From a virus, in IMG/VR virus record IMGVR_UViG_3300010334_000118, positions 1 to 38,459 of that record: a stretch of DNA of 38,459 bases; one strand, given 5' to 3'. The position numbers and the translations under genes are program-made. Shown piece after piece: positions 3,359 to 37,632 of the stretch (positions are counted from its first letter, which is position 1; every line of letters begins with the position of its first letter). The notes below the pieces were generated by a model that was given only the letters and a program-made list of their open reading frames with translations, did no database searches and had not been told where the DNA came from.

Positions 3359-3555
3359 AGTTCAGTCTCCGTTATTTCGCGCATGTATCCACGGCATCGA
3401 GCGTCAAACCCTTTGCCGTAATGCTTTTCAATTAATGAAATCTGCTTTGTTAGCCAAGCGTTAGCCTTTGGTCTTCCAAGCAGTGCAACAGTTGCAAAGT
3501 AGGACGGGACAAGCATTCTTGCTTCTGCTTTTTCTAATTGCTTACGGTCAGACAT
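3346..3555 (-). CDS. Hypothetical protein (69 aa)
   Basis: I place the start at the ATG at 3555 (MSDRKQLEKAEARM...), because that ATG shares one base with the upstream TAA (TAATG), a coupling arrangement; six further codons upstream are possible. The 69-residue product is basic with a helix-rich pattern (WLTKQISLIEKHYGKGFDARCRGYM). It vaguely resembles small conserved proteins of phages (DUF7696-type), but I am not sure. It lies between the PP-loop enzyme and the helix-turn-helix gene in the leftward operon. Confidence 0.6.
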   Translation of the reverse strand: MSDRKQLEKAEARMLVPSYFATVALLGRPKANAWLTKQISLIEKHYGKGFDARCRGYMREITETELCRN

Positions 3556-4382
3556 TAGTCGCCACAAAAGCAAGCAATTGCTTTTTCATTTTTGTCAAAC
3601 ATATCGGTTTGTTCTGCTGCATATTTAACCATTGACGCATAAGAAGGGCGATCTGAACGAAAAACCGCACCGCTTGGCTTGGACGCCAACGCCAACGCCA
3701 ACGCCTCCATTTTTGCCCACCAAATTGCGCGTTCTGGTTTTTCGGCAATCAAACTCAAAACTTGTGCTCCACCTTTCAAAAAGCACAAATCACAATTACC
3801 GTGCATAGTGACGCCATTTATGTTTGGCAAACCAAGGTCAAACGGTTGCGACCTCCAAAAAGCGCCAACATCTTCTTTGGTAATGCCAGCAGTCACAAGA
3901 GGAATGCGAGATTTGTCCACAATCTTGGCTGCTCTACGTTGTTCATCAGCCCTCATCCCGACCCAATCCATATTTTCGTTGTGTTCCCATCCAAGAGATT
4001 TAAGGTACTTGTGGATAGTGCGAATCTTGAGTTCTGCGGTACAAAAGCGCGTGACAGGATTGGGTAAGTAGTTTCGCTTGCGAATAAGCGCCTCAAATGG
4101 CTCACCCTGACGGCTGGCTGTCTCAAAGGTAATACGCTTAAACGCTGGGTCTGCGTTTTGGAACTCAACCCAATGGATTTCTACATTCCAATGCTCTGAG
4201 CAATCCTGCACAAACCTTAGTGTGGCTTCATCTTCCTTGCCGGTGTTGGCAAAACAAACAATTGCCTCCTCTGGAAGTTTGCCGCCGTTAGACTGAAGAA
4301 CACGCCAAAGCATATATGCGCTCGTCCTACCTCCGCTGAAAGAAATGCAAGTTGGTTCAATAATTTTGAATGGATCATTCAT
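3555..4382 (-). CDS. PP-loop ATP pyrophosphatase, PAPS-reductase-like
   Basis: A 275-residue member of the adenine-nucleotide alpha-hydrolase (PP-loop) superfamily. The PP-loop is ISFSGGRTSAYM (SGGRTS at 16-21), with FANTGKEDEATLRFV as the next conserved strand-loop. Cysteines in NPVTRFCTAELKIR, in HGNCDLCFLKGG and at the C-terminus (ACFCGD) suggest a metal centre or thiol chemistry. Relatives reduce PAPS, modify tRNA or act in DNA phosphorothioation. Phage copies are common but mostly uncharacterised. It sits between the replicative helicase and the nin-type genes, so a role in nucleic-acid modification or host sulfur metabolism is possible but unproven. A tandem of three gccaac units (about 3685-3702) encodes an Ala-Leu repeat near residue 230. 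Confidence 0.8.
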   Translation of the reverse strand: MNDPFKIIEPTCISFSGGRTSAYMLWRVLQSNGGKLPEEAIVCFANTGKEDEATLRFVQDCSEHWNVEIHWVEFQNADPAFKRITFETASRQGEPFEALIRKRNYLPNPVTRFCTAELKIRTIHKYLKSLGWEHNENMDWVGMRADEQRRAAKIVDKSRIPLVTAGITKEDVGAFWRSQPFDLGLPNINGVTMHGNCDLCFLKGGAQVLSLIAEKPERAIWWAKMEALALALASKPSGAVFRSDRPSYASMVKYAAEQTDMFDKNEKAIACFCGD

Positions 4383-10848: not shown

Positions 10849-11358
10849 CTAAGCCATACTTGATGCATTGGATTGGACGTAAGAAATTCTATTTCCCCAG
10901 CCCTTTCCAAAAACGGTCCAAGTTGGAAGTTGCTCCAGAAACTGTAGTCTTGTGTCGTTGTAATGCGAAATCAAAAAATGAATTGGGTAGGTTTCAATTA
11001 TTGCCAAAGTCTTAGGGCCAATAAACCCGTCTACAGGAACATTTACAAGCTCTTGCAGCCACTTGGCAGCTCTACCTGGTCCAGAGTTAATTGCAGCGTC
11101 AAATACGGCGTAATCAAGGCCAGATGGAAGCAAATCGCCAGATACTTTGTCCCAGTATTTGCGTTTGTAGAGTGGCATAACGTCGGATTTTGTCAAATTT
11201 TTCATATCTTTTTCGGATACTTGATGTCCTACGTATTCTTCCCAAACCGCTTTGGTAACACCTAAATTGGTCATTCCGCCTGGATCTTGTTTGTTGTTTA
11301 CAAACCCGCCCTCAGAAGAAAGTACGTTTTTGAGTGCTTGTTCAAAGTTTGAAATCAT
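10849..11358 (-). CDS. Endolysin, glycoside hydrolase family 108
   Basis: A 169-residue muramidase-type endolysin. The N-terminal GH108 domain has the family's catalytic EGG in LSSEGGFVNNKQDPGGMTNL (E16), and a C-terminal region (GPGRAAKWLQELVNVPVDGF, IGPKT) matches the associated peptidoglycan-binding domain. It cuts the peptidoglycan glycan backbone at the end of infection. It has no signal peptide, so release should depend on the holin encoded at 12775-13161. It is the last gene of the leftward late operon and is separated from the rest of the lysis cluster by an inserted rightward gene and the phosphoesterase. Confidence 0.9.
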   Translation of the reverse strand: MISNFEQALKNVLSSEGGFVNNKQDPGGMTNLGVTKAVWEEYVGHQVSEKDMKNLTKSDVMPLYKRKYWDKVSGDLLPSGLDYAVFDAAINSGPGRAAKWLQELVNVPVDGFIGPKTLAIIETYPIHFLISHYNDTRLQFLEQLPTWTVFGKGWGNRISYVQSNASSMA

Positions 11359-15247: not shown

Positions 15248-16489
15248 TTAAATTTGTGTTGCAACTGCAATCACATCCCACCGAGTATTATTGGCGTTGT
15301 ACATACAACCTATATATGTAGTTTTTCCAGTAATTGTTGACGATGGCAAAATTGTTCCAATTACAGTATAAGTAGCGTCCCAAGTCAAACTGTAAGGGCC
15401 TGCACTATCATCAAGTATTCTAAATATTAATTTATTTCCATCCAGCGGAGTTCCGGTAGGGGCGTTGATTGTTAAGGCAGACGCCAAAGCCGTGTACGCA
15501 TAAACATCCGCAGTTGCAATACTTGGGGTTAGTGATGTTGCAGTTGCTGCGCTAACTACTCTAGGGTTAACACGAGACCCTCCGACTGTTCCTCCAGTAA
15601 TAGTAACGTTGCTTGCAGATTGTGTTGACATCGTGCCAAGTCCAGAAACTTGGGTGCTTGGGAGGCTTAAACTGCTTAGTGCAGTGAGCGTGCTGTTGGT
15701 TGTTGCCGTAATGTTTGAAGCAGTGCCAGTAGTGCTTTGATTAAGCTGTGGAACATCTTCTTTCATAATTGCAGCAAGCAAAGTATTAGTGCCATTAGAT
15801 CGTAAATAATACCCCGATGTTTGCGTACCTGACAAAGCCGTAATTGCTGCTGATTGAGTAGTTTGTCCTGTACCACCATTATTAATAGCTACAGTACCCG
15901 TCACATTTGCTGCTGTTCCTGTAGTGCTTTGATTCCATGTTGGAGCTGTGCCTGATAACTGAGAATAAGGAAGGCTAAGTGCGCTTAAAGTAATTAGAGT
16001 GCTATTGCTAGTAGCTGTGATGTTAGTTGCTGTAGCGGCGTTACCTGTTGTGTTCTGATTAAAGGTGGGCCATATAAATGTGCCTGTGCTGAAATTTCCA
16101 GATGATGGCGTTCCTAACGATGGTGTTACAAGAATTGGAGAAGTAGCTAAAACGACTGAACCTGATCCTGTTGCTGTAATTGAACCAGTGCCGCCATTGG
16201 CTACTGGAAGGGCTGTTCCTGAGTACGTTATAGATAAAGTGCCAGTTGTTGTAATTGGGCTTCCGGTTATAGATAAAAAAGGTGGAACACTAGCTGAAAC
16301 TGATGTAACTGTTCCTCCACCACCACCAGAGCCTCCAGCATAAGCAAGGCTACTCCAAGAATTAACGCCATCTCCAAATTTAAATTTAGATGTATCTGTT
16401 TCCATCCCCATTTCGCCTTGAGCAAGAACAGGGTTTGTTAAAGTCCATTGAGAAGCCGTTCCACGGCGCATTTGTATTTGTACTGGCAT
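15248..16489 (-). CDS. Tail fibre with Mtd-type N-terminal domain
   Basis: A 413-residue fibre. The N-terminus QIQMRRGTASQWTLTNPVLA followed by GEMGMETDTSKFKFGDGVNS matches the N-terminal beta-prism domain of the major tropism determinant family, which attaches fibres to the tail. A glycine hinge (GGSGGGGG) follows, then repeats such as LPVANGGTG, FNQNTTGNAATATNI and LNQSTTGTASNITATT, typical of trimeric beta-fibres. The C-terminal about 100 residues (TINAPTGTPLDGNKLIFRI, WDATYTVIG, CMYNANNTRWDVIAV) form the distal head. No reverse transcriptase is present, so variable-region diversification is not indicated. Confidence 0.8.
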   Translation of the reverse strand: MPVQIQMRRGTASQWTLTNPVLAQGEMGMETDTSKFKFGDGVNSWSSLAYAGGSGGGGGTVTSVSASVPPFLSITGSPITTTGTLSITYSGTALPVANGGTGSITATGSGSVVLATSPILVTPSLGTPSSGNFSTGTFIWPTFNQNTTGNAATATNITATSNSTLITLSALSLPYSQLSGTAPTWNQSTTGTAANVTGTVAINNGGTGQTTQSAAITALSGTQTSGYYLRSNGTNTLLAAIMKEDVPQLNQSTTGTASNITATTNSTLTALSSLSLPSTQVSGLGTMSTQSASNVTITGGTVGGSRVNPRVVSAATATSLTPSIATADVYAYTALASALTINAPTGTPLDGNKLIFRILDDSAGPYSLTWDATYTVIGTILPSSTITGKTTYIGCMYNANNTRWDVIAVATQI

Positions 16490-27789: not shown

Positions 27790-28017
27790 TTATCCTTTGA
27801 TAATTTTGTTGAAAATTTCTTGATTGAGTGCCAACGCATACGCAACAATTTCACTTGGAGTCATGTGATGAGCGTGATGTTTGGCAATCTCATGGGCAAG
27901 TGTAACAGCGGTCATCCGTTGCTGCATAAACCCAAACCAGTCTTTGCGAGTCTCTGATTGTTTTGCAAGAAAGTTGAGTAGGTCGCCCGTATTTTGTATT
28001 GTTGTTGGTTGTGTCAT
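27790..28017 (-). CDS. Small hypothetical tail-region protein (75 aa)
   Basis: A 75-residue, helical, His-rich protein (LAHEIAKHHAHHMTPSEIVA). The HHAHH cluster might bind metal, but no family is recognised. It sits between the ferritin-like gene and the tail chaperone, coupled by a 4-nt overlap with the former. A chaperone-like or assembly role is possible because of position only. Confidence 0.6.
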   Translation of the reverse strand: MTQPTTIQNTGDLLNFLAKQSETRKDWFGFMQQRMTAVTLAHEIAKHHAHHMTPSEIVAYALALNQEIFNKIIKG

Positions 28018-28529
28018 TTTAAGAATCGTAGTTTATAAATTGTGCTGTCAATCAATTGTGCAATTTCATCAGTAATGTTTTGCAATTCAGTGTCTTTAGG
28101 AAACTTTTCTGAATTACGAAGTGCAAAAACTTCATCTTTTAAATAAAGCATGTAATCCATAGGATCATCTGGAGTTTCAAATCCGCTAGTGAAATTTGTT
28201 AGCAATCCATACTTACCTTGAAACGCTTCCACAAAATCATCAACATGATCGCCAATTTCTGTGTAATAAGTTTCAAGAGCTTTATGCTGAGAATACGAAA
28301 GGCTTATCAAATGAAGAATGTGAGCGCCAGTAACGCTATGCAACAAGCACATCACAAACTCCATTACTGGATCATCTTGCTTTTGCTCTACGCTAAATTT
28401 CATAGGATTGTTTTGCTTTGAATATCCATTAGCATATGCAGCACGGGCAACGGCTTGAGCCTTTGATTTTGTAGCAAATGGCCCTTTGCCGCCCCAATAC
28501 CACCCATCAGATTTCTTTGCTATGGGCAT
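28014..28529 (-). CDS. DUF5856-like ferritin-fold protein
   Basis: I start at MPIAKKS (28529); MKMPIAKKS (28535) is possible. The N-terminal 40 residues (SDGWYWGGKGPFATKSKAQA) look like the small DNA- or membrane-adapting motif seen at phage protein ends. The rest, DDPVMEFVMCLLHSVTGAHI onward (HLISLSYSQHKALETYY, EAFQGKYGLL), matches the DUF5856 ferritin-like family of four-helix proteins found in phages. Glu, His and Asp residues spaced along the helices could bind metal. A role in the tail region is unknown. The start overlaps the end of the preceding gene. Confidence 0.75.
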   Translation of the reverse strand: MPIAKKSDGWYWGGKGPFATKSKAQAVARAAYANGYSKQNNPMKFSVEQKQDDPVMEFVMCLLHSVTGAHILHLISLSYSQHKALETYYTEIGDHVDDFVEAFQGKYGLLTNFTSGFETPDDPMDYMLYLKDEVFALRNSEKFPKDTELQNITDEIAQLIDSTIYKLRFLK

Positions 28530-28710
28530 TTTCAATTACAGGGTTGTACTTCGCCAGCAAGCGCAATGCTACGCCTTCAGCCGAGTCAGCTTCAACAGAA
28601 GCCAATTCGGCAGCAACTTCGTTGGCATCAACCACTGAAAACCTGGCAATTAAATCCAAGTCTCCAGTGGCTGTTGTCAACCCCTTAACCACTTGGTCAA
28701 GGGTTTCCAT
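28507..28710 (-). CDS. Small hypothetical tail-region protein (67 aa)
   Basis: The ATG at 28710 (METLDQVVKGLTTATGDLD) shares a base with the tail protein's TAA (TAATG), so I prefer it to an upstream frame at 28764 that overlaps the tail gene. The 67-residue product is acidic and helical (VDANEVAAELASVEADSAEG). No family is recognised. The downstream ferritin-like gene overlaps it by 23 nt. Confidence 0.6.
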   Translation of the reverse strand: METLDQVVKGLTTATGDLDLIARFSVVDANEVAAELASVEADSAEGVALRLLAKYNPVIENAHSKEI

Positions 28711-30532: not shown

Positions 30533-31207
30533 TTACATCACCAAAGGCTTATATGGGCGAAGCAATGTAGCAACACCAAAAGGGATGTCGTTTAATTTTT
30601 TATCTACTGTATTACTGCGATTGTTGTACAGGTGAGTAATCAGCAAAAGTCCAGCTTGTTTGATGACTTGGTATGTAGCCAATGGATTAGCTACTGTAGA
30701 GTAGTCAACCACAATAGGTGCTGTCATTGTTGAATTTATGCTAGTAGGCAAACTTTGCACAATAAGTTTATTGCCCGATGTATCATAGTAATACTGTGAG
30801 CTTGCAACCGTTACAGCAACAGGTGGAAAAGCATCTGTCCAATATTTCAACGATGTGATTGTGACTCCAGCCAAAGAAGAATCTGAGTTTTGACTGACTT
30901 CTGGAATGTCTAAGCATACTGGTGATGCTACAAGGCTCTCCATGCCGTACCAGACGCGATATGACACTGGAAAGATAGACATACCAAGGTAATCTTCTAT
31001 TGCCTGCCTAACAGCCACTTCTAGACCCGCCAAATAGGCATCCTGACTTTCATCACCAAACAAATTTAATTGATTAGTGATTTCAGAAAGGGAAAGCCAA
31101 GGCGTTGCATTGTCACGGTTTATCTGCTCAACTTTTACATAGTTGAACGGATTGCGCGTCGCTGCCCCAAAGGGCAGACCGGCTTGGTAGTTTTCTGCAG
31201 CCATCAA
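30533..31207 (-). CDS. Head-tail connector (gp6-like adaptor)
   Basis: A 224-residue adaptor that binds the portal. Its helical N-terminal core contains YLAGLEVAVRQAIEDYLGMS, the classic gp6-like motif (A...I..YLG), followed by a beta part (VYRVWYGMESLV-type strands) and a helical C-terminus (TYQVIKQAGLLLITHLYNNR). It forms the adaptor ring between portal and stopper. The start overlaps the stop of the second capsid gene by 4 nt. Confidence 0.8.
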   Translation of the reverse strand: MMAAENYQAGLPFGAATRNPFNYVKVEQINRDNATPWLSLSEITNQLNLFGDESQDAYLAGLEVAVRQAIEDYLGMSIFPVSYRVWYGMESLVASPVCLDIPEVSQNSDSSLAGVTITSLKYWTDAFPPVAVTVASSQYYYDTSGNKLIVQSLPTSINSTMTAPIVVDYSTVANPLATYQVIKQAGLLLITHLYNNRSNTVDKKLNDIPFGVATLLRPYKPLVM

Positions 31208-32241
31208 ACACCAACCAAACGGATGCCAGCAAAAGGGTCGCGCACAGTTGACACCATACGTTTTTCAGAATACAGGGTCACAAAGCCGGGTGTAGTTTCT
31301 TCCATCGCTTGAATGGTCATTTCTTCCACATCAGCAATGGTGACGAAACGAGGCCAATTTGCAAGATAGATGGAAAAGTTACCAGCGCCAACAACTTCCA
31401 TGTATGGATTTGGAATTACTGGAAATCCAAAAATGTTTTTAACAGCGCCGCCATCATCATCACCAACTTCAGCAAATTGTTTAATATTGGGTGCCGCTGT
31501 AGGGCCAAGGTTTCGCAAGTCGTGAATGGTTTGTGGGTGCATCATCCAAGCTGTACCGGGCAGATTCCAATACTGAGCAGGGAATAAGCGAACCATATCT
31601 GTAATATCGGCATATGCAACAGCCGCAGCCGCTTGTGTTTTTGTTGCAATTGAATGAATGCCGTTAGTAATTGCTGTGCCACTTGTGCCAAAAGCAGAAG
31701 ATGCTGCGCTTGTGTACATATCCAAACCACGCAAGCCATCTGTGCCGCCTGTCGTTGTGGTTGTGCTGCCAGCCTGATCATTGTTGAGCACCATTGAAGC
31801 GCCCTCAATAGCCGCAAACTCCAACATCAAATCTTCAACAATAGTTTCGTTCAAGTAATTGATGTCCGACATAGCAGCCGTGCGGATTGGCAACTGTGCC
31901 GTAATCACGCGAGTGGGAATCTGCCAGATAGTAGTGTTAGTGCCGGGTGTGCCGGTGTTGGGACTAAAAGTGTATCCCCAAGGATTTGTTTGGTTTGCCG
32001 CATTACCTGTTTTAGCAACGAATTGGGCGCTAGAACCAGATACAGGAATAACACGCGACATTTCACGAATTGGGTTCGCAAAGCGTAATGCAGCAAATGC
32101 ATTATCAAAGAAAGTACGACCACCTTGTCCATTGCCGCTGCCACCCAAAGAGGCTGCTTCACGCAAATCAATATTTACTTTTTCTCCGGTTTCCAGAGTT
32201 TGCTTAATGCCGTCAAGGATTTTTTCGGTGATAGTTTTCAT
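31204..32241 (-). CDS. HK97-fold major capsid protein, second paralogue (short N-arm)
   Basis: A 345-residue HK97-fold capsid protein, homologous to the upstream one at 32291-33640. Shared blocks: GQGGRTFFDNAFAALRFANP, VKTGNA/AKTGNAA, IRTAAM(L)SDI, NNDQAGS, TTGGTDGLRGLDMY, PAQYW, and the end VTLYSEKRMVSTVRDP. It lacks the roughly 75-residue coiled-coil scaffold (delta) arm of the first copy, beginning directly with a 25-residue helix before the N-arm. A protein without a scaffold arm could be co-assembled with the first or form a minor face or vertex component. A hairpin at 32264-32279 precedes it. Confidence 0.85.
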   Translation of the reverse strand: MKTITEKILDGIKQTLETGEKVNIDLREAASLGGSGNGQGGRTFFDNAFAALRFANPIREMSRVIPVSGSSAQFVAKTGNAANQTNPWGYTFSPNTGTPGTNTTIWQIPTRVITAQLPIRTAAMSDINYLNETIVEDLMLEFAAIEGASMVLNNDQAGSTTTTTGGTDGLRGLDMYTSAASSAFGTSGTAITNGIHSIATKTQAAAAVAYADITDMVRLFPAQYWNLPGTAWMMHPQTIHDLRNLGPTAAPNIKQFAEVGDDDGGAVKNIFGFPVIPNPYMEVVGAGNFSIYLANWPRFVTIADVEEMTIQAMEETTPGFVTLYSEKRMVSTVRDPFAGIRLVGV

Positions 32242-32263
32242 ATTTTTTCCAAGTTTAAAAGAC

Positions 32264-32279
32264 GGGGGCCGAAGCCCCC
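32264..32279 (-). terminator. UUCG-loop hairpin between the two capsid genes
   Basis: On the minus strand GGGGGC-TTCG-GCCCCC is a perfect 6-bp GC stem closed by a UUCG tetraloop, followed by GTCTTTT. It lies 12 nt after the first capsid gene and 23 nt before the second. The weak T-tail suggests partial termination or mRNA processing that lowers expression of the second copy. Confidence 0.75.
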
Positions 32280-32290
32280 ATCTACCACAA

Positions 32291-33640
32291 TTAAGCGTTA
32301 GCAGTACCAGTTGAACGATAGCGAATCAATGCGTTAGGGTCACGCACCGAGGTTGCCAAACGTTTTTCACCATAGAAAGTAATGTAACCAGGCAAAGTTT
32401 GGTCATAACGGCGCATAACCATATTCAAACGATCAATGATTGTGTGCGAACGAGTCCAATCACCAAAATACATTGGATACTTGCTAACAGTACCAGCCGC
32501 GCCGGTAGCCAATTGGCTTGGTGCGTCCAGATACTTGTTCATCACCACATCAAAGCCCAACAATTGACCGATGATACCGTCTGGGTTCAGAGATTCAACA
32601 GAATTGAAAATCGGGCGACCGTTGGTATCTTGCAGGCCACGGATGGCTTGAGCAAGAATCGGGTTAATCATGAACCGAGTTGCAGGAGTCCAGTATTGTT
32701 GCGGCAGGGCGTAAATCGTGTTAATAACGTCTTTGTATTGCACGTTGTTTGCGCCAACAGTATTGGAGTTGGTAGTAATCTGGTCGTAAGTTGCTACGCT
32801 GTGCAAGCCAGTCGTAGAACCTGTTCCAGAAGTACCAAATGCAGCAGTTGACGTAGTGCCACCGGCATAAGTTGCATTAGCGCCAGGATACTGATTCAAA
32901 CCACGCAAACCGTCAGCGCCACCAGTGGTTACAGAAGAACCTGTACCGCTTTGGTCGTTGTTGGAAATCATGGATTGCGCCTCTGCCTGAGCAAACTCCG
33001 CCAACATATCGTCAACAATGTTTGCTTCCAAACCATCAATGTCGTCCAGAGCCGCAGTACGGATCGGGAACTGAACGTTAATGTCTTTTAGAACCAATTG
33101 CCAGATGCTGGTGTTCTCAGTTGTGGGCGTACCGTTGTTTTGGACTGCATAACCCCATTGAGCGCCAGCGTTACCAGTCTTAACACGGAACTGATAAGAG
33201 GAACCGTCAGTAGCCACGGTGCGAGACATACCGCGCATGGGGTTAGCCAGACGCAAAGCAACAAACACGGGATCGTAGCTAGTGCGACCACCTTGACCGT
33301 CACCGCCAGCGGTAAGACCAGCAGCTTCCTTCATATAGGCATCATACTGATCGACGCTTTCAAACATCTTCAGTTCTTTTTCGCCTTGACGAGAAGCTTT
33401 GTAATAGGTAGACAATTGCTCACGTACAGCGCGATTTACATCGCTGCGAACGGTTTTGGCAATCTTAATAACGGGGGCGGCGTTCAAAGAGGCAACTTTA
33501 GCCTCCAAAGCAGCAACCATTTCAGCCATTTCAGCTTTGACAGCTTCAACAGCAGCGGGGATTTTGGCTTCAACAGCCGACACAGCTTCAGCTTGTTTGG
33601 CTTCAATAGCGTCTAGTTTTTCAATAATAGCTTGAGACAT
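32291..33640 (-). CDS. HK97-fold major capsid protein, first paralogue (with scaffold arm)
   Basis: A 449-residue HK97-type major capsid protein. Residues 1-100 form an Ala/Glu/Lys-rich coiled coil (EAKQAEAVSAVEAKIPAAVE), the delta-domain scaffold removed by the prohead protease; EAAGLTAGGDGQGGR probably marks the maturation site. The body carries VALRLANPMRGMSR, FRVKTGNAG, VQFPIRTAALDDIDGLEANI (E-loop/spine helix) and LPGYITFYGEKRLATSVRDP at the C-terminus. It lies directly after the protease, as in HK97, and is probably the main shell protein. Confidence 0.9.
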   Translation of the reverse strand: MSQAIIEKLDAIEAKQAEAVSAVEAKIPAAVEAVKAEMAEMVAALEAKVASLNAAPVIKIAKTVRSDVNRAVREQLSTYYKASRQGEKELKMFESVDQYDAYMKEAAGLTAGGDGQGGRTSYDPVFVALRLANPMRGMSRTVATDGSSYQFRVKTGNAGAQWGYAVQNNGTPTTENTSIWQLVLKDINVQFPIRTAALDDIDGLEANIVDDMLAEFAQAEAQSMISNNDQSGTGSSVTTGGADGLRGLNQYPGANATYAGGTTSTAAFGTSGTGSTTGLHSVATYDQITTNSNTVGANNVQYKDVINTIYALPQQYWTPATRFMINPILAQAIRGLQDTNGRPIFNSVESLNPDGIIGQLLGFDVVMNKYLDAPSQLATGAAGTVSKYPMYFGDWTRSHTIIDRLNMVMRRYDQTLPGYITFYGEKRLATSVRDPNALIRYRSTGTANA

Positions 33641-33642
33641 AA

Positions 33643-34419
33643 TTAACCTTTCAGTCGTTTATCAAGGGATTTGAGAAGTTCACGTTGCTCAAGAGCCGCG
33701 AGAATTTCCGCATTGGTTGCCTCCGCATCAGAATCACTCTGTTTTGGTGCAGTTTCATTAGGCACAACAACAGCATCACGCTGTTCAAGCACCTTTTTGA
33801 AAGTAGATGCAGCGGCAACCGCATCACTCTTGGATAGACCGGCATCACGCAGGGCTTGTTCCATAATCTTTAAATCAGCAGTTCCATCAGGTCGGAAATA
33901 CTCCAATTTACTGATGTTTGCTTCAGGATTGTTTGGGTACATTACCACGGACACTTCGCGAAGGCCACCTTTGGTAATTTGAAAATACGCATCTTCCGAT
34001 TGATCTGGTTCGCCATTGGCATTAACCATTTGATAGTCTTCAGCATAAGCGCCAACAGAAACACCTCCAAACATTGAAGGAGATTCGGACATTACAGTGT
34101 AAATATCTTTGCCTGCACTGGTATTCATATAAATGCGGCCTTCTGCCATCATTCCAGAATCTGTCATTTCAAATGATGTCCATTCTCCAATGGGCATTGC
34201 ATCAGCATTGTGATTCATGAACATTGGCAACGGTTTGCCAGCGTTGGCAAAGGCTTCTGCCCAGTCCATAAAGCCTTCTGGTTGATAATTGAACCTGCGA
34301 CCATCAGCGCCTTCACGAGCGCCCCATGTTGTCACAGTGGCTTCAATTTTCCCTATTTGCCCTTTGGCTTCGCTCACAAGCCGTGCTTCGCACAGCATCG
34401 TTACATTTTTTTGCGTCAT
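33643..34419 (-). CDS. Prohead maturation protease (U35 / HK97-type)
   Basis: A 258-residue serine protease that matures the capsid. Visible catalytic elements are the histidine in PLPMFMNHNADAMPIGEW (H70) and the serine in MFGGVSVGAYAED (about S121), with KGGLREVSVVMYPNNPEA as the conserved third block. The C-terminal 90 residues are variable and charged, a probable scaffold-like tail. It lies directly upstream of the capsid gene. Its N-terminal 77 nt overlap a small ORF read in another frame (34343-34525). Confidence 0.9.
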   Translation of the reverse strand: MTQKNVTMLCEARLVSEAKGQIGKIEATVTTWGAREGADGRRFNYQPEGFMDWAEAFANAGKPLPMFMNHNADAMPIGEWTSFEMTDSGMMAEGRIYMNTSAGKDIYTVMSESPSMFGGVSVGAYAEDYQMVNANGEPDQSEDAYFQITKGGLREVSVVMYPNNPEANISKLEYFRPDGTADLKIMEQALRDAGLSKSDAVAAASTFKKVLEQRDAVVVPNETAPKQSDSDAEATNAEILAALEQRELLKSLDKRLKG

Positions 34420-34530: not shown

Positions 34531-35928
34531 TTATTTTCCAATATTCATTTTTCTGGACTGACTTCCACCCCCACCACCCGTGTCTTGGGGACTTGTTCCA
34601 GAAATAGTATCAGTTTTTGCTGAAGGGTCAAGCAATTTGTCTGCACCGTCTATGTTACACATATTCATGTATTCACGGGCCTCATTGGGAGTCATTATAC
34701 CTGCGCCAACTCCAGCAACAGCAAAGTTCATCTGATCTAACGGAGCGCCCTTCAAAAAGTCTCGCGTATCAAACTCAATTTTTAAGTTTGGGTATCCTTG
34801 AAACAATTGCATCTTTAACTTCTGCTGAATATTGACTGTAGTTGGATAAATTGTGGATTTATAAAACTCGTCCAAAAGAGTTTGAGTGTTGTTGTACTTT
34901 TGATCTTGAATTCCAATAAGTGCAGGAGGAACTCCAAACAATCCGCAAATACGCTTCATAGTTTGAATTTTCAAATTATGAGCATCAGCATCTTGTAAAG
35001 TGAGCATTTGCAAAGGCGTGTATTTCATGCCTTGATCTAGCAACATTCCCTGTCCAGGCTTGCTTGGATCGGATTGACGTGAACCTGTCATGCTTGACCA
35101 TGCTTCTTTTAGTCTTGCAGCAATCTCTTTGAATTTGCCATCAGGAATAACTTGTTCAGTTGTAAACATACCAGAAGGTTTTGCGCCGTTCTGCATGACG
35201 TAATTAGCGTACAAATCAATATCTTGGTCTAAGGATACTAATTCAGCAGCCAAAATGCCCTTATTAAAGCCAGCAGAGCCTTGCCATGCCATGTCTTTGA
35301 CGTGCATAACTTGGTGGGCGCTTAAAGGCTCGTCACGGCTAAATCCGTAGCTTGGCGTGGACAAGCGATAACTAGGGTAGCGTGCTGGATTGATAGTTAC
35401 CGCAATTAGCGTACTGTCAAGCAGGTACATCTCCAACGGAGTCTCCAAAGGATTGTTTTGGTTTTGCCTCCACCACAAAGTAAACGCTTCGCCAGACAAT
35501 TCGTACCACATAATCCACTGATACCAGAACTCATAGGCACTTTGGAACTTGTTTGGCTCTGCCAACAATGATGCTACTTGCTTGGCCTTGGCCTTGTCGC
35601 GCTTGCCAACATTTTCATCTTTGCAAGCATCTACATATGTCCCATCGTCCAATTCAGCCATTACTCGAATTGGCAATTGAGAAATGGCTCTTGCTTTTGC
35701 TGCAACGCAAGCCAATACGGTGGAATTGCGCGTAAGCAGCGACATATCCACCGGACGACCAGCATTGTTTGTGGACGACGTGGTTACATAAAGAATCTGG
35801 GTGTTAACTGGAACTTGCTTTTTTCCAGACTGATAAACAATGTTATTGCCTAGCGCAGTCTGTCCAAATAGCGTATTTGCCTCGTTTGAAACGTCTTCTT
35901 TACGCTTGAAAATATCCAAAATAGCCAT
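34531..35928 (-). CDS. Portal protein (HK97 family)
   Basis: A 465-residue portal of the HK97 type. Typical blocks are NSTVLACVAAKARAISQLPI, EPNKFQSAYEFWYQWIMWYE, LSGEAFTLWWRQNQN, MKRICGLFGVPPALIGIQDQ and KYNNTQTLLDEFYKSTIYP, with a Gly/Ser-rich C-terminus (TGGGGGSQSRK). It forms the dodecameric DNA channel at one capsid vertex and is where terminase docks. It starts 24 nt after the large terminase gene. Confidence 0.9.
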   Translation of the reverse strand: MAILDIFKRKEDVSNEANTLFGQTALGNNIVYQSGKKQVPVNTQILYVTTSSTNNAGRPVDMSLLTRNSTVLACVAAKARAISQLPIRVMAELDDGTYVDACKDENVGKRDKAKAKQVASLLAEPNKFQSAYEFWYQWIMWYELSGEAFTLWWRQNQNNPLETPLEMYLLDSTLIAVTINPARYPSYRLSTPSYGFSRDEPLSAHQVMHVKDMAWQGSAGFNKGILAAELVSLDQDIDLYANYVMQNGAKPSGMFTTEQVIPDGKFKEIAARLKEAWSSMTGSRQSDPSKPGQGMLLDQGMKYTPLQMLTLQDADAHNLKIQTMKRICGLFGVPPALIGIQDQKYNNTQTLLDEFYKSTIYPTTVNIQQKLKMQLFQGYPNLKIEFDTRDFLKGAPLDQMNFAVAGVGAGIMTPNEAREYMNMCNIDGADKLLDPSAKTDTISGTSPQDTGGGGGSQSRKMNIGK

Positions 35929-35952: not shown

Positions 35953-37632
35953 CTACCAATCAACTGCTCGAAAACCAAACGAATCATTGACAAACACATT
36001 ATCTAAGTGGCAGTGCATCGCCATAATTAATGTAATGATGCCGTCAACTTTGGCAGACGGATCAGATTCATTCTTTCTGACCTTGACGTTTCCATTTACA
36101 TCAGTGTAAACCTCGCAATTACCAAGTTGCCAGCCAACAAATGGATTGCCATTGTGTTTAATAGCTTTCTTTAGAATTAATTGTTCAGTAGTCTTAGATG
36201 GGTTAGATAGCACCGACATACTTTGACCGACTTTTTTTACAGGCAAAGCACTCCCAAAAAGATTAGCAACCAATGATGCTGCGTTGTAAGGATCAAAGCC
36301 AATTTCTTTGACTTCATTCTCTTTGCATTCATTGTTGATGTATTTTTCAATCTCGTTCATATCCGTGACGTTGCCTTGCGTCAGTTTTAGGATGCCAGAT
36401 TCCACGGCTTGCATGTAAGTTGAGCGATAGTGATTGGGAATAAACGACAAAGATTCTTCAGGCAAAAAGAATTGAAACTTAGCGTAAAAATCTTCTTCTC
36501 CATATCTCTTTACTGTAGCCACTGCGTTTAAATCTCGACTGTGAGCCAAGTCAAACGCCATAAACACAGCTTCAGGTTTTTCAGTTGGCTCTGGTGCAAC
36601 AGATTCATCCCAATGCCTGCGATCCACCCAAGCAGTATTTGCACTTACATAAATGTTTAATTGTTTGCACAAAAACTCGTTTAAGCTGGCAGGTTTTGCA
36701 GACGCCTCTGCTGCCATGTGCGCAATGTGTTCTGTAGTGACTGAGATTCCGAGCATAGGGTTAGCTTTACGCCAAACCGCTGGATCACTCCATTCATCAC
36801 CAGGATCAATGCTGTACAGCAGGCCAAACCAACGGTAATTGTCTGGTGCAGCGCCACGCAAGATATTACGAAAATGACTCAAATCTTCGTAAAACTTGGT
36901 TTCTTTAGTAAAAGATGCCGTGGTTAAGTACATTCGCAATGGATTCTTACGAGCGCCCATACCTGAGTGCAACACCTCAATAGAGGACCGTTCCACAATC
37001 TGCGCTGCTTCATCAATCATGGCGCAAGACGGGTTCTTTCCGTCACCAGTCTTTTTGTTGTCTCTAGACAGCGCACGATAAGTAGAAGTGGAATCTCCTG
37101 CCTTCTTTAACTCATTACGGTAAACAATGAATTTTGATGTCAATTCAGCCTTCATGTTTTCCACAATGGCTTTAGACGAATCAAAACAAATTGTTGCCTG
37201 TTCTCTATTTGTCGCCAATGTAAAGACTTCAGCGCCAGCATCGCCAAACTGAAGTTCGTAAAGAGCAATAATTGAAGCCAAAGTTGTCTTGCCAGACTTC
37301 CGCGGAACGAAAAGAATAACGTCAGTTGTCCAGCGGAAGCTGTGGTCACGCTTGTCGCGGAAACCGTAAATAGCCGCCAACAGCAAGACCTGAAAGCCGC
37401 TTAACTCAATTGTTTTGCCAGCATCTGCGCCCTTAACGTGTCTAGTAAATTTGACAAATTTAAGAATATGCTCAGCTTTAGCACAAACAAACTCATAAGG
37501 AGCATCTTTGCGCTCCACCATATCAAGGAATCGTTGACAAGCCAACCTAACGTCTTCGCAGGCCGCTATATCTCCACGCACTACTCCAATTGCGTACTCA
37601 AAAGCCGGTTTAAGCAGAGGCGAATAATTCAT
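35953..37632 (-). CDS. Terminase large subunit
   Basis: A 559-residue packaging motor of the HK97 family. ATPase: Walker A VPRKSGKTT (109-117), Walker B PSCAMIDEAAQ (203-211), and a motif-III-like YLTTASFTKE. Nuclease: FMAFDLAHSRDLNAVA (D361) with later acidic residues (GFDPYNAASLVA, SAKVDGIITLI). It cuts concatemers and drives DNA through the portal with the small subunit. Members of this family include cos-cutting phages, which fits a cos site near the window ends, but that is inference. It overlaps the small-subunit gene by 23 nt. Confidence 0.9.
   Translation of the reverse strand: MNYSPLLKPAFEYAIGVVRGDIAACEDVRLACQRFLDMVERKDAPYEFVCAKAEHILKFVKFTRHVKGADAGKTIELSGFQVLLLAAIYGFRDKRDHSFRWTTDVILFVPRKSGKTTLASIIALYELQFGDAGAEVFTLATNREQATICFDSSKAIVENMKAELTSKFIVYRNELKKAGDSTSTYRALSRDNKKTGDGKNPSCAMIDEAAQIVERSSIEVLHSGMGARKNPLRMYLTTASFTKETKFYEDLSHFRNILRGAAPDNYRWFGLLYSIDPGDEWSDPAVWRKANPMLGISVTTEHIAHMAAEASAKPASLNEFLCKQLNIYVSANTAWVDRRHWDESVAPEPTEKPEAVFMAFDLAHSRDLNAVATVKRYGEEDFYAKFQFFLPEESLSFIPNHYRSTYMQAVESGILKLTQGNVTDMNEIEKYINNECKENEVKEIGFDPYNAASLVANLFGSALPVKKVGQSMSVLSNPSKTTEQLILKKAIKHNGNPFVGWQLGNCEVYTDVNGNVKVRKNESDPSAKVDGIITLIMAMHCHLDNVFVNDSFGFRAVDW

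Follow-up and report, generated by a model that had tools for sequence, protein, structure and literature searches.

The window, a virus record of 38,459 nt, carries two adjacent genes on its minus strand that encode HK97-fold capsid paralogues, and this M–S pair is ancient and fixed in the phage clade to which the window belongs. M (32291..33640) encodes a protein of 449 residues annotated as the major capsid protein, and S (31204..32241) encodes a paralogue of 345 residues. We propose that S has become a specialised minor component of the shell, most likely a pentameric vertex protein analogous to gp24 of phage T4, and hold this reading with slightly better than even confidence. We infer that S is present in the virion, that it occupies the vertices, that it is cleaved, and that it is made at a lower dosage than M.

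Both genes lie within a head module that reads, on the minus strand, terminase, portal, S78 prohead protease, M, S and head-tail adaptor. The terminase large subunit (35953..37632) was identified by PF20441 and PF03354, the portal protein (34531..35928) by PF04860 (E 9.1e-64), the prohead protease (Peptidase_S78; 33643..34419) by PF04586 (E 1.5e-8) and by phrog_80, head maturation protease, and the Ad1-like adaptor (30533..31207), which abuts S, by phrog_40 (E 8.3e-13) and PF05135. M and S both pass the curated cut-off of 24.2 bits for PF05065 (Phage_capsid), with scores of 105.7 bits (E 3.8e-30) and 69.4 bits (E 4.5e-19) respectively, and both match the PHROG family phrog_10, major head protein. 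BLASTP aligns the two over the whole capsid body with 39% identity in 353 columns (E 8e-65), and a search of the genome against itself recovered S as a second copy of M with 46% identity (E 7e-72). The AlphaFold models, which have mean pLDDT values of 71.7 for M and 73.9 for S, both match solved HK97-fold capsids in Foldseek, with best E values of 7e-18 and 1.5e-16; the best match in each case is the capsid of RcGTA (6tb9 for M). The S model contains the complete HK97 fold, comprising E-loop, spine helix, P-domain and A-domain. An earlier note had described two tandem homologous HK97-type capsid genes at this place, and the coordinates, strand and product lengths, the BLASTP alignment, PF05065 and the predicted folds all agree with that description: it is confirmed that M and S are HK97-fold capsid paralogues.

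The most obvious difference between the two proteins is at the N-terminus. S is 104 residues shorter than M, and the difference is mostly N-terminal. In M, AlphaFold predicts residues 1–104 to contain helices at 2–51, 64–82 and 96–104, followed by the HK97-type body. A helical arm of about 100 residues encoded beside a prohead protease gene, as in the HK97-type delta domain, is thus a feature of M and not of S, and on the predicted structure the arm of M may be described as a scaffold-like (delta-domain-like) extension. The N-terminus of S is predicted to consist of a short helix (4–18) and an unstructured linker, which lead into an M-like body; the helix is conserved, and aligns with residues 62–82 of M. 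The arm had been thought to be confined to the first protein, which is correct for the long arm, but S retains this short helix. The linker at the end of the arm, EAxxLTxGGxGxGGRT (residues 105–119 of M and 28–42 of S), is the most conserved region between M and S, being identical at 14 of 20 consensus positions, which makes a common cleavage site here plausible. The S78 protease is presumed to cleave M, and probably cleaves S as well.

Within the body, the A-domain has the lowest consensus identity between M and S (33/89 positions, compared with 115/223 elsewhere; p=0.024), a modest result that depends on domain borders taken from an AlphaFold model of medium confidence, with a mean pLDDT of about 72. 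The axial A-loop of M has the near-invariant sequence R-x-L-x-D-x-x-G-R-P (LxDxxGRP; L336-D338-P343), and aligns with RKMKDADGR in the capsid protein of RcGTA. S does not have this motif, and its residue at the position of D338 varies between S, G, H, T, A and D. In HK97-type capsids the axial A-loop sits at the centre of the capsomer, and the change between M and S therefore falls where five-fold and six-fold rings differ most.

We then gathered loci containing capsid homologues by scanning IMG/VR, using several members of the clade as queries, together with GTDB contigs. This analysis found 412 loci, of which 411 belong to this phage clade; the exception, L294, is a prophage capsid distant from the clade, with a single capsid homologue. 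M and S are both present in 389 loci, and in the other 22 of the 411 clade loci the contig or locus ends within 450 nt of the one gene that remains. A relative without the second gene would have spoken against the earlier note, and the sequence search found no untruncated locus with M but without S among the 411 clade loci. There are 229 distinct M–S protein pairs, with some loci sharing a contig, and because the pair recurs in so many distinct forms the association is far beyond chance. The pair is therefore conserved more strongly than the sequence of the window alone could tell. One contig has an S gene broken into two overlapping reading frames (L375:4383-5336), arising from either a frameshift or an assembly error. 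Relatives of prophage type are limited to four contigs from metagenome-assembled genomes (MAGs), and these could be phage sequences that were placed in the bin of a host; among 398 genomes, the M–S pair occurs in one of these four alone (G001), and the only other homologue is the distant single capsid gene of L294. A search of 249 genomes for tandem whole PF05065 genes listed none, and since it missed the known S gene of G001 it provides no usable base rate.

The sequences suggest that the pair has a single origin. A joint tree built from 65 representative pairs divides M and S into two reciprocally monophyletic groups (support 1.0), and the branch between them measures 1.13 substitutions per site. 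Evolution has been faster in S than in M (subtree lengths of 13.9 and 9.0 respectively), and across 175 compared pairs the lowest pairwise identity is 57% for M and 47% for S. Both genes are under purifying selection, the median dN/dS (omega) of M being 0.136 and that of S 0.140. M is closer than S to other capsid proteins, as seen both in the PF05065 scores given above and in the match to RcGTA (E 7e-7 for M, 0.3 for S), and the simplest account is therefore that S derives from M by a single duplication, with no loss seen since. In three loci (L075, L076 and L078) M is only 60–62% identical to that of the window while S is 77–79% identical, whereas many other members are similar for both proteins; in these three, M seems to have been exchanged by recombination independently of S.

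The spacing of the genes sets M apart from those that follow. In most loci the gap from protease to M is 2–4 nt, and that from S to adaptor is 2–3 nt in 161/214 loci, while the spacer between M and S is 46–77 nt long, with one exception. In the window the spacer contains a GC-rich hairpin on the minus strand (32260..32283), AGATGGGGGC-TTCG-GCCCCCGTCT, followed by TTT; no other minus-strand hairpin in the window has a stem of 7 or more pairs that includes 6 or more GC pairs. A GC-rich hairpin is found in all 184 of the distinct M–S spacers from the clade. In 177 of these the stem has 7 or more pairs, of which 5 or more are GC, as do 0.6% of shuffled sequences, and the other 7 have stems of 6 pairs; at least 5 T within 12 nt at the end of the stem occur in 168/184. 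The stems vary widely in sequence, with 89 kinds in the first 141 spacers. As a control we looked at phages with a single capsid gene, and in HK97, lambda, Bcep176 and Venkman a hairpin likewise follows that gene. The hairpin is therefore not a signature of two capsid genes but a general feature following capsid genes, marking a presumed break in dosage, and is in itself no evidence for a vertex protein. It is likely to be a partial terminator or the 3′-end hairpin of the M transcript, termination itself being presumed, and it places S together with the head-tail adaptor on the presumed low-dosage side.

Close homologues among 50,697 phage records were confined to Methylophilaceae phage P19250A (KX815270). 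Its gp5 and gp6 are direct homologues of M (62–63% identical) and S (57–58% identical), in the same order and with the same spacing. The record describes gp5 as "gene transfer agent capsid protein" and gp6 (L157:6066-7124) as "hypothetical protein", and hence does not recognise the pair; gp6 is a capsid paralogue. P19250A is the sole cultured member of the group that was found, which brings a proteomic test within reach. The marine OM43 phage Venkman has been described as syntenic-like to P19250A (PMC8163748). It was considered as a further relative with the pair and rejected, having a different head module with a separate scaffold and one capsid gene.

Several features elsewhere in the window are of separate interest. 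A protein at the tail end (15248-16489, minus strand) contains the Major tropism determinant N-terminal domain (PF18454, E 5e-14), a domain known from Mtd of phage BPP-1; no reverse transcriptase was found among the window proteins scanned, which were those of the larger reading frames. A holin of the GTA_holin_3TM family (PF11351; 12775-13161, minus strand) lies near a lysozyme-like Glyco_hydro_108 gene (10849-11358). The tail genes include a DUF5856 protein (28014-28535, minus strand; PF19174, E 2.6e-18), and a weak PAPS reductase-type domain (3555-4382, minus strand; PF01507, just below the cut-off) marks a possible auxiliary sulfur gene.

M is the major capsid protein, and in the mechanism that we propose its 104-residue helical arm would act as a covalent scaffold, to be removed by the adjacent S78 protease. 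One ancient duplication of M would have produced S, which would have lost most of the arm and become a minor subunit of the M shell. M would form the hexamers, and S, most likely, the pentamers of the eleven vertices that the portal does not occupy. Contact between S and the M lattice would run through the conserved surfaces of the N-arm and P-domain, while the altered rim of the S A-domain would suit the different symmetry of its capsomer. The hairpin after M would reduce expression of all the downstream genes, and S would therefore be made at levels like those of the adaptor rather than those of the capsid protein. A point against the vertex reading is that HK97, which at 39.7 kb has nearly the same genome size, needs only one protein for its hexamers and pentamers alike, so that a vertex protein is not physically required. 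The earlier note had suggested a minor capsomer, a vertex or decoration-like subunit, or a size determinant for the second gene; of these, which sequence alone does not separate, we favour a minor shell subunit, most likely at the vertex.

The strongest competitor, which we nevertheless regard as fairly unlikely, is that S and M co-assemble, either sharing hexamers or with S at particular quasi-equivalent positions, and that S thereby tunes the size or stability of the capsid by diluting the scaffold arm. The bodies of M and S are 39–46% identical with a conserved N-arm and P-domain, and since S is without most of the arm, mixing would reduce the density of scaffold inside the prohead. However, mixed capsomers should constrain the A-domain, and this is the domain that evolves faster and in which S has lost the near-invariant axial A-loop motif; furthermore, the loci L075, L076 and L078 imply that S tolerates rather different M partners. 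We consider it improbable that S instead makes up or caps a specialised site, for example a collar at the portal vertex, a head completion ring or an outer decoration with the HK97 fold. Its grouping with the connector genes, 2–3 nt from the adaptor and downstream of the break in dosage, would fit such a role; the full HK97 fold of the S model and its retention of the linker region of M are what is expected of a shell subunit, and we know of no decoration protein with the HK97 fold.

The full HK97 fold would also fit S building a shell of its own, for example a smaller head or a second type of particle, rather than joining the M shell, and other capsids of the HK97 type are able to form closed shells of different size. 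We find this slightly less probable again, given that S has no scaffold arm, that no separate scaffold gene was recognised beside it, and that its place in the loci examined is between M and the adaptor. Least probable is that S has no structural role, or is a duplicate in decay or one that the phage can dispense with: the split gene in the L375 contig, if not an assembly error, might be an example of such decay, but S otherwise stands beside M throughout the clade, with an omega of 0.14 and an old single split with support of 1.0.

Most HK97-fold phages of similar size use one protein in both five-fold and six-fold settings. We judge the chances to be about equal, for and against, that in this family of phages of approximately 38 kb, with a head module otherwise like that of HK97 and a scaffold fused to the capsid protein, a shell of two proteins arose independently, one of them a dedicated vertex subunit with almost no arm, and that all members seen have retained it. 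If so, the fixed and ancient division into two subunits in these small phages, whose scaffold is fused, would repeat in a separate lineage the gp23/gp24 division of T4. It would make it possible to ask what causes a capsid protein to stop forming pentamers, and whether hexamers alone require the scaffold arm. The finding also corrects an annotation, in that a "hypothetical protein" in a widespread group of small freshwater phages is a capsid paralogue.

Our search for literature on tandem HK97 capsid paralogues in small phages gave nothing relevant beyond T4, with which a close comparison can be made. In both T4 and the clade, adjacent capsid paralogues occur in the order capsid protein then vertex protein or S, with the prohead protease upstream, and the second paralogue has the shorter N-terminal part; S is, in the manner of gp24, a paralogue of the capsid protein that is encoded directly downstream of it. 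The order in T4 is gp23, a hairpin AGGGAACC-TTCG-GGTTCCCT with a T-run (T6), the GIY-YIG endonuclease gene segD, and gp24, the pentameric vertex protein, so that a UUCG-type hairpin and T-run directly follow the first capsid gene in both T4 and the window. One clade locus has a free-standing homing endonuclease gene (L162:5459-5998, plus strand; phrog_314, E 1.6e-17) inserted after the M hairpin and ahead of S, with a stop codon that overlaps the start of S, at a place matching that of segD; the two endonucleases show no alignment, and we reject a relationship between them. The propeptide of gp24 is the shorter one in T4 (10 vs 65 residues), and mutations that bypass gp24 map to the A-domain of gp23 (PMC9958956). 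T4 differs in having a separate scaffold, a prolate head and a 169-kb genome, and gp23 and gp24 are far more diverged than M and S (28% identity over part of their length). There is no meaningful alignment of S to gp24 (best BLASTP E 2.3), and no detectable sequence relation of M to gp23. The clade pair therefore probably arose by independent duplication, the likeness being one of design.

HK97 resembles the clade in having a portal, a prohead protease, a capsid protein with a fused N-terminal arm, a terminator hairpin and an Ad1 adaptor within a genome of similar size. Cleavage of gp5 in HK97 removes an arm of 104 residues (PMC9024508). HK97 differs in having one capsid gene, with no S between the hairpin and Ad1. 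The RcGTA capsid protein (Rcc01687) is, among solved structures, the best match to M in both fold and sequence and the best match to S in fold, and the RcGTA shell is, so far as is known, built from this single capsid protein.
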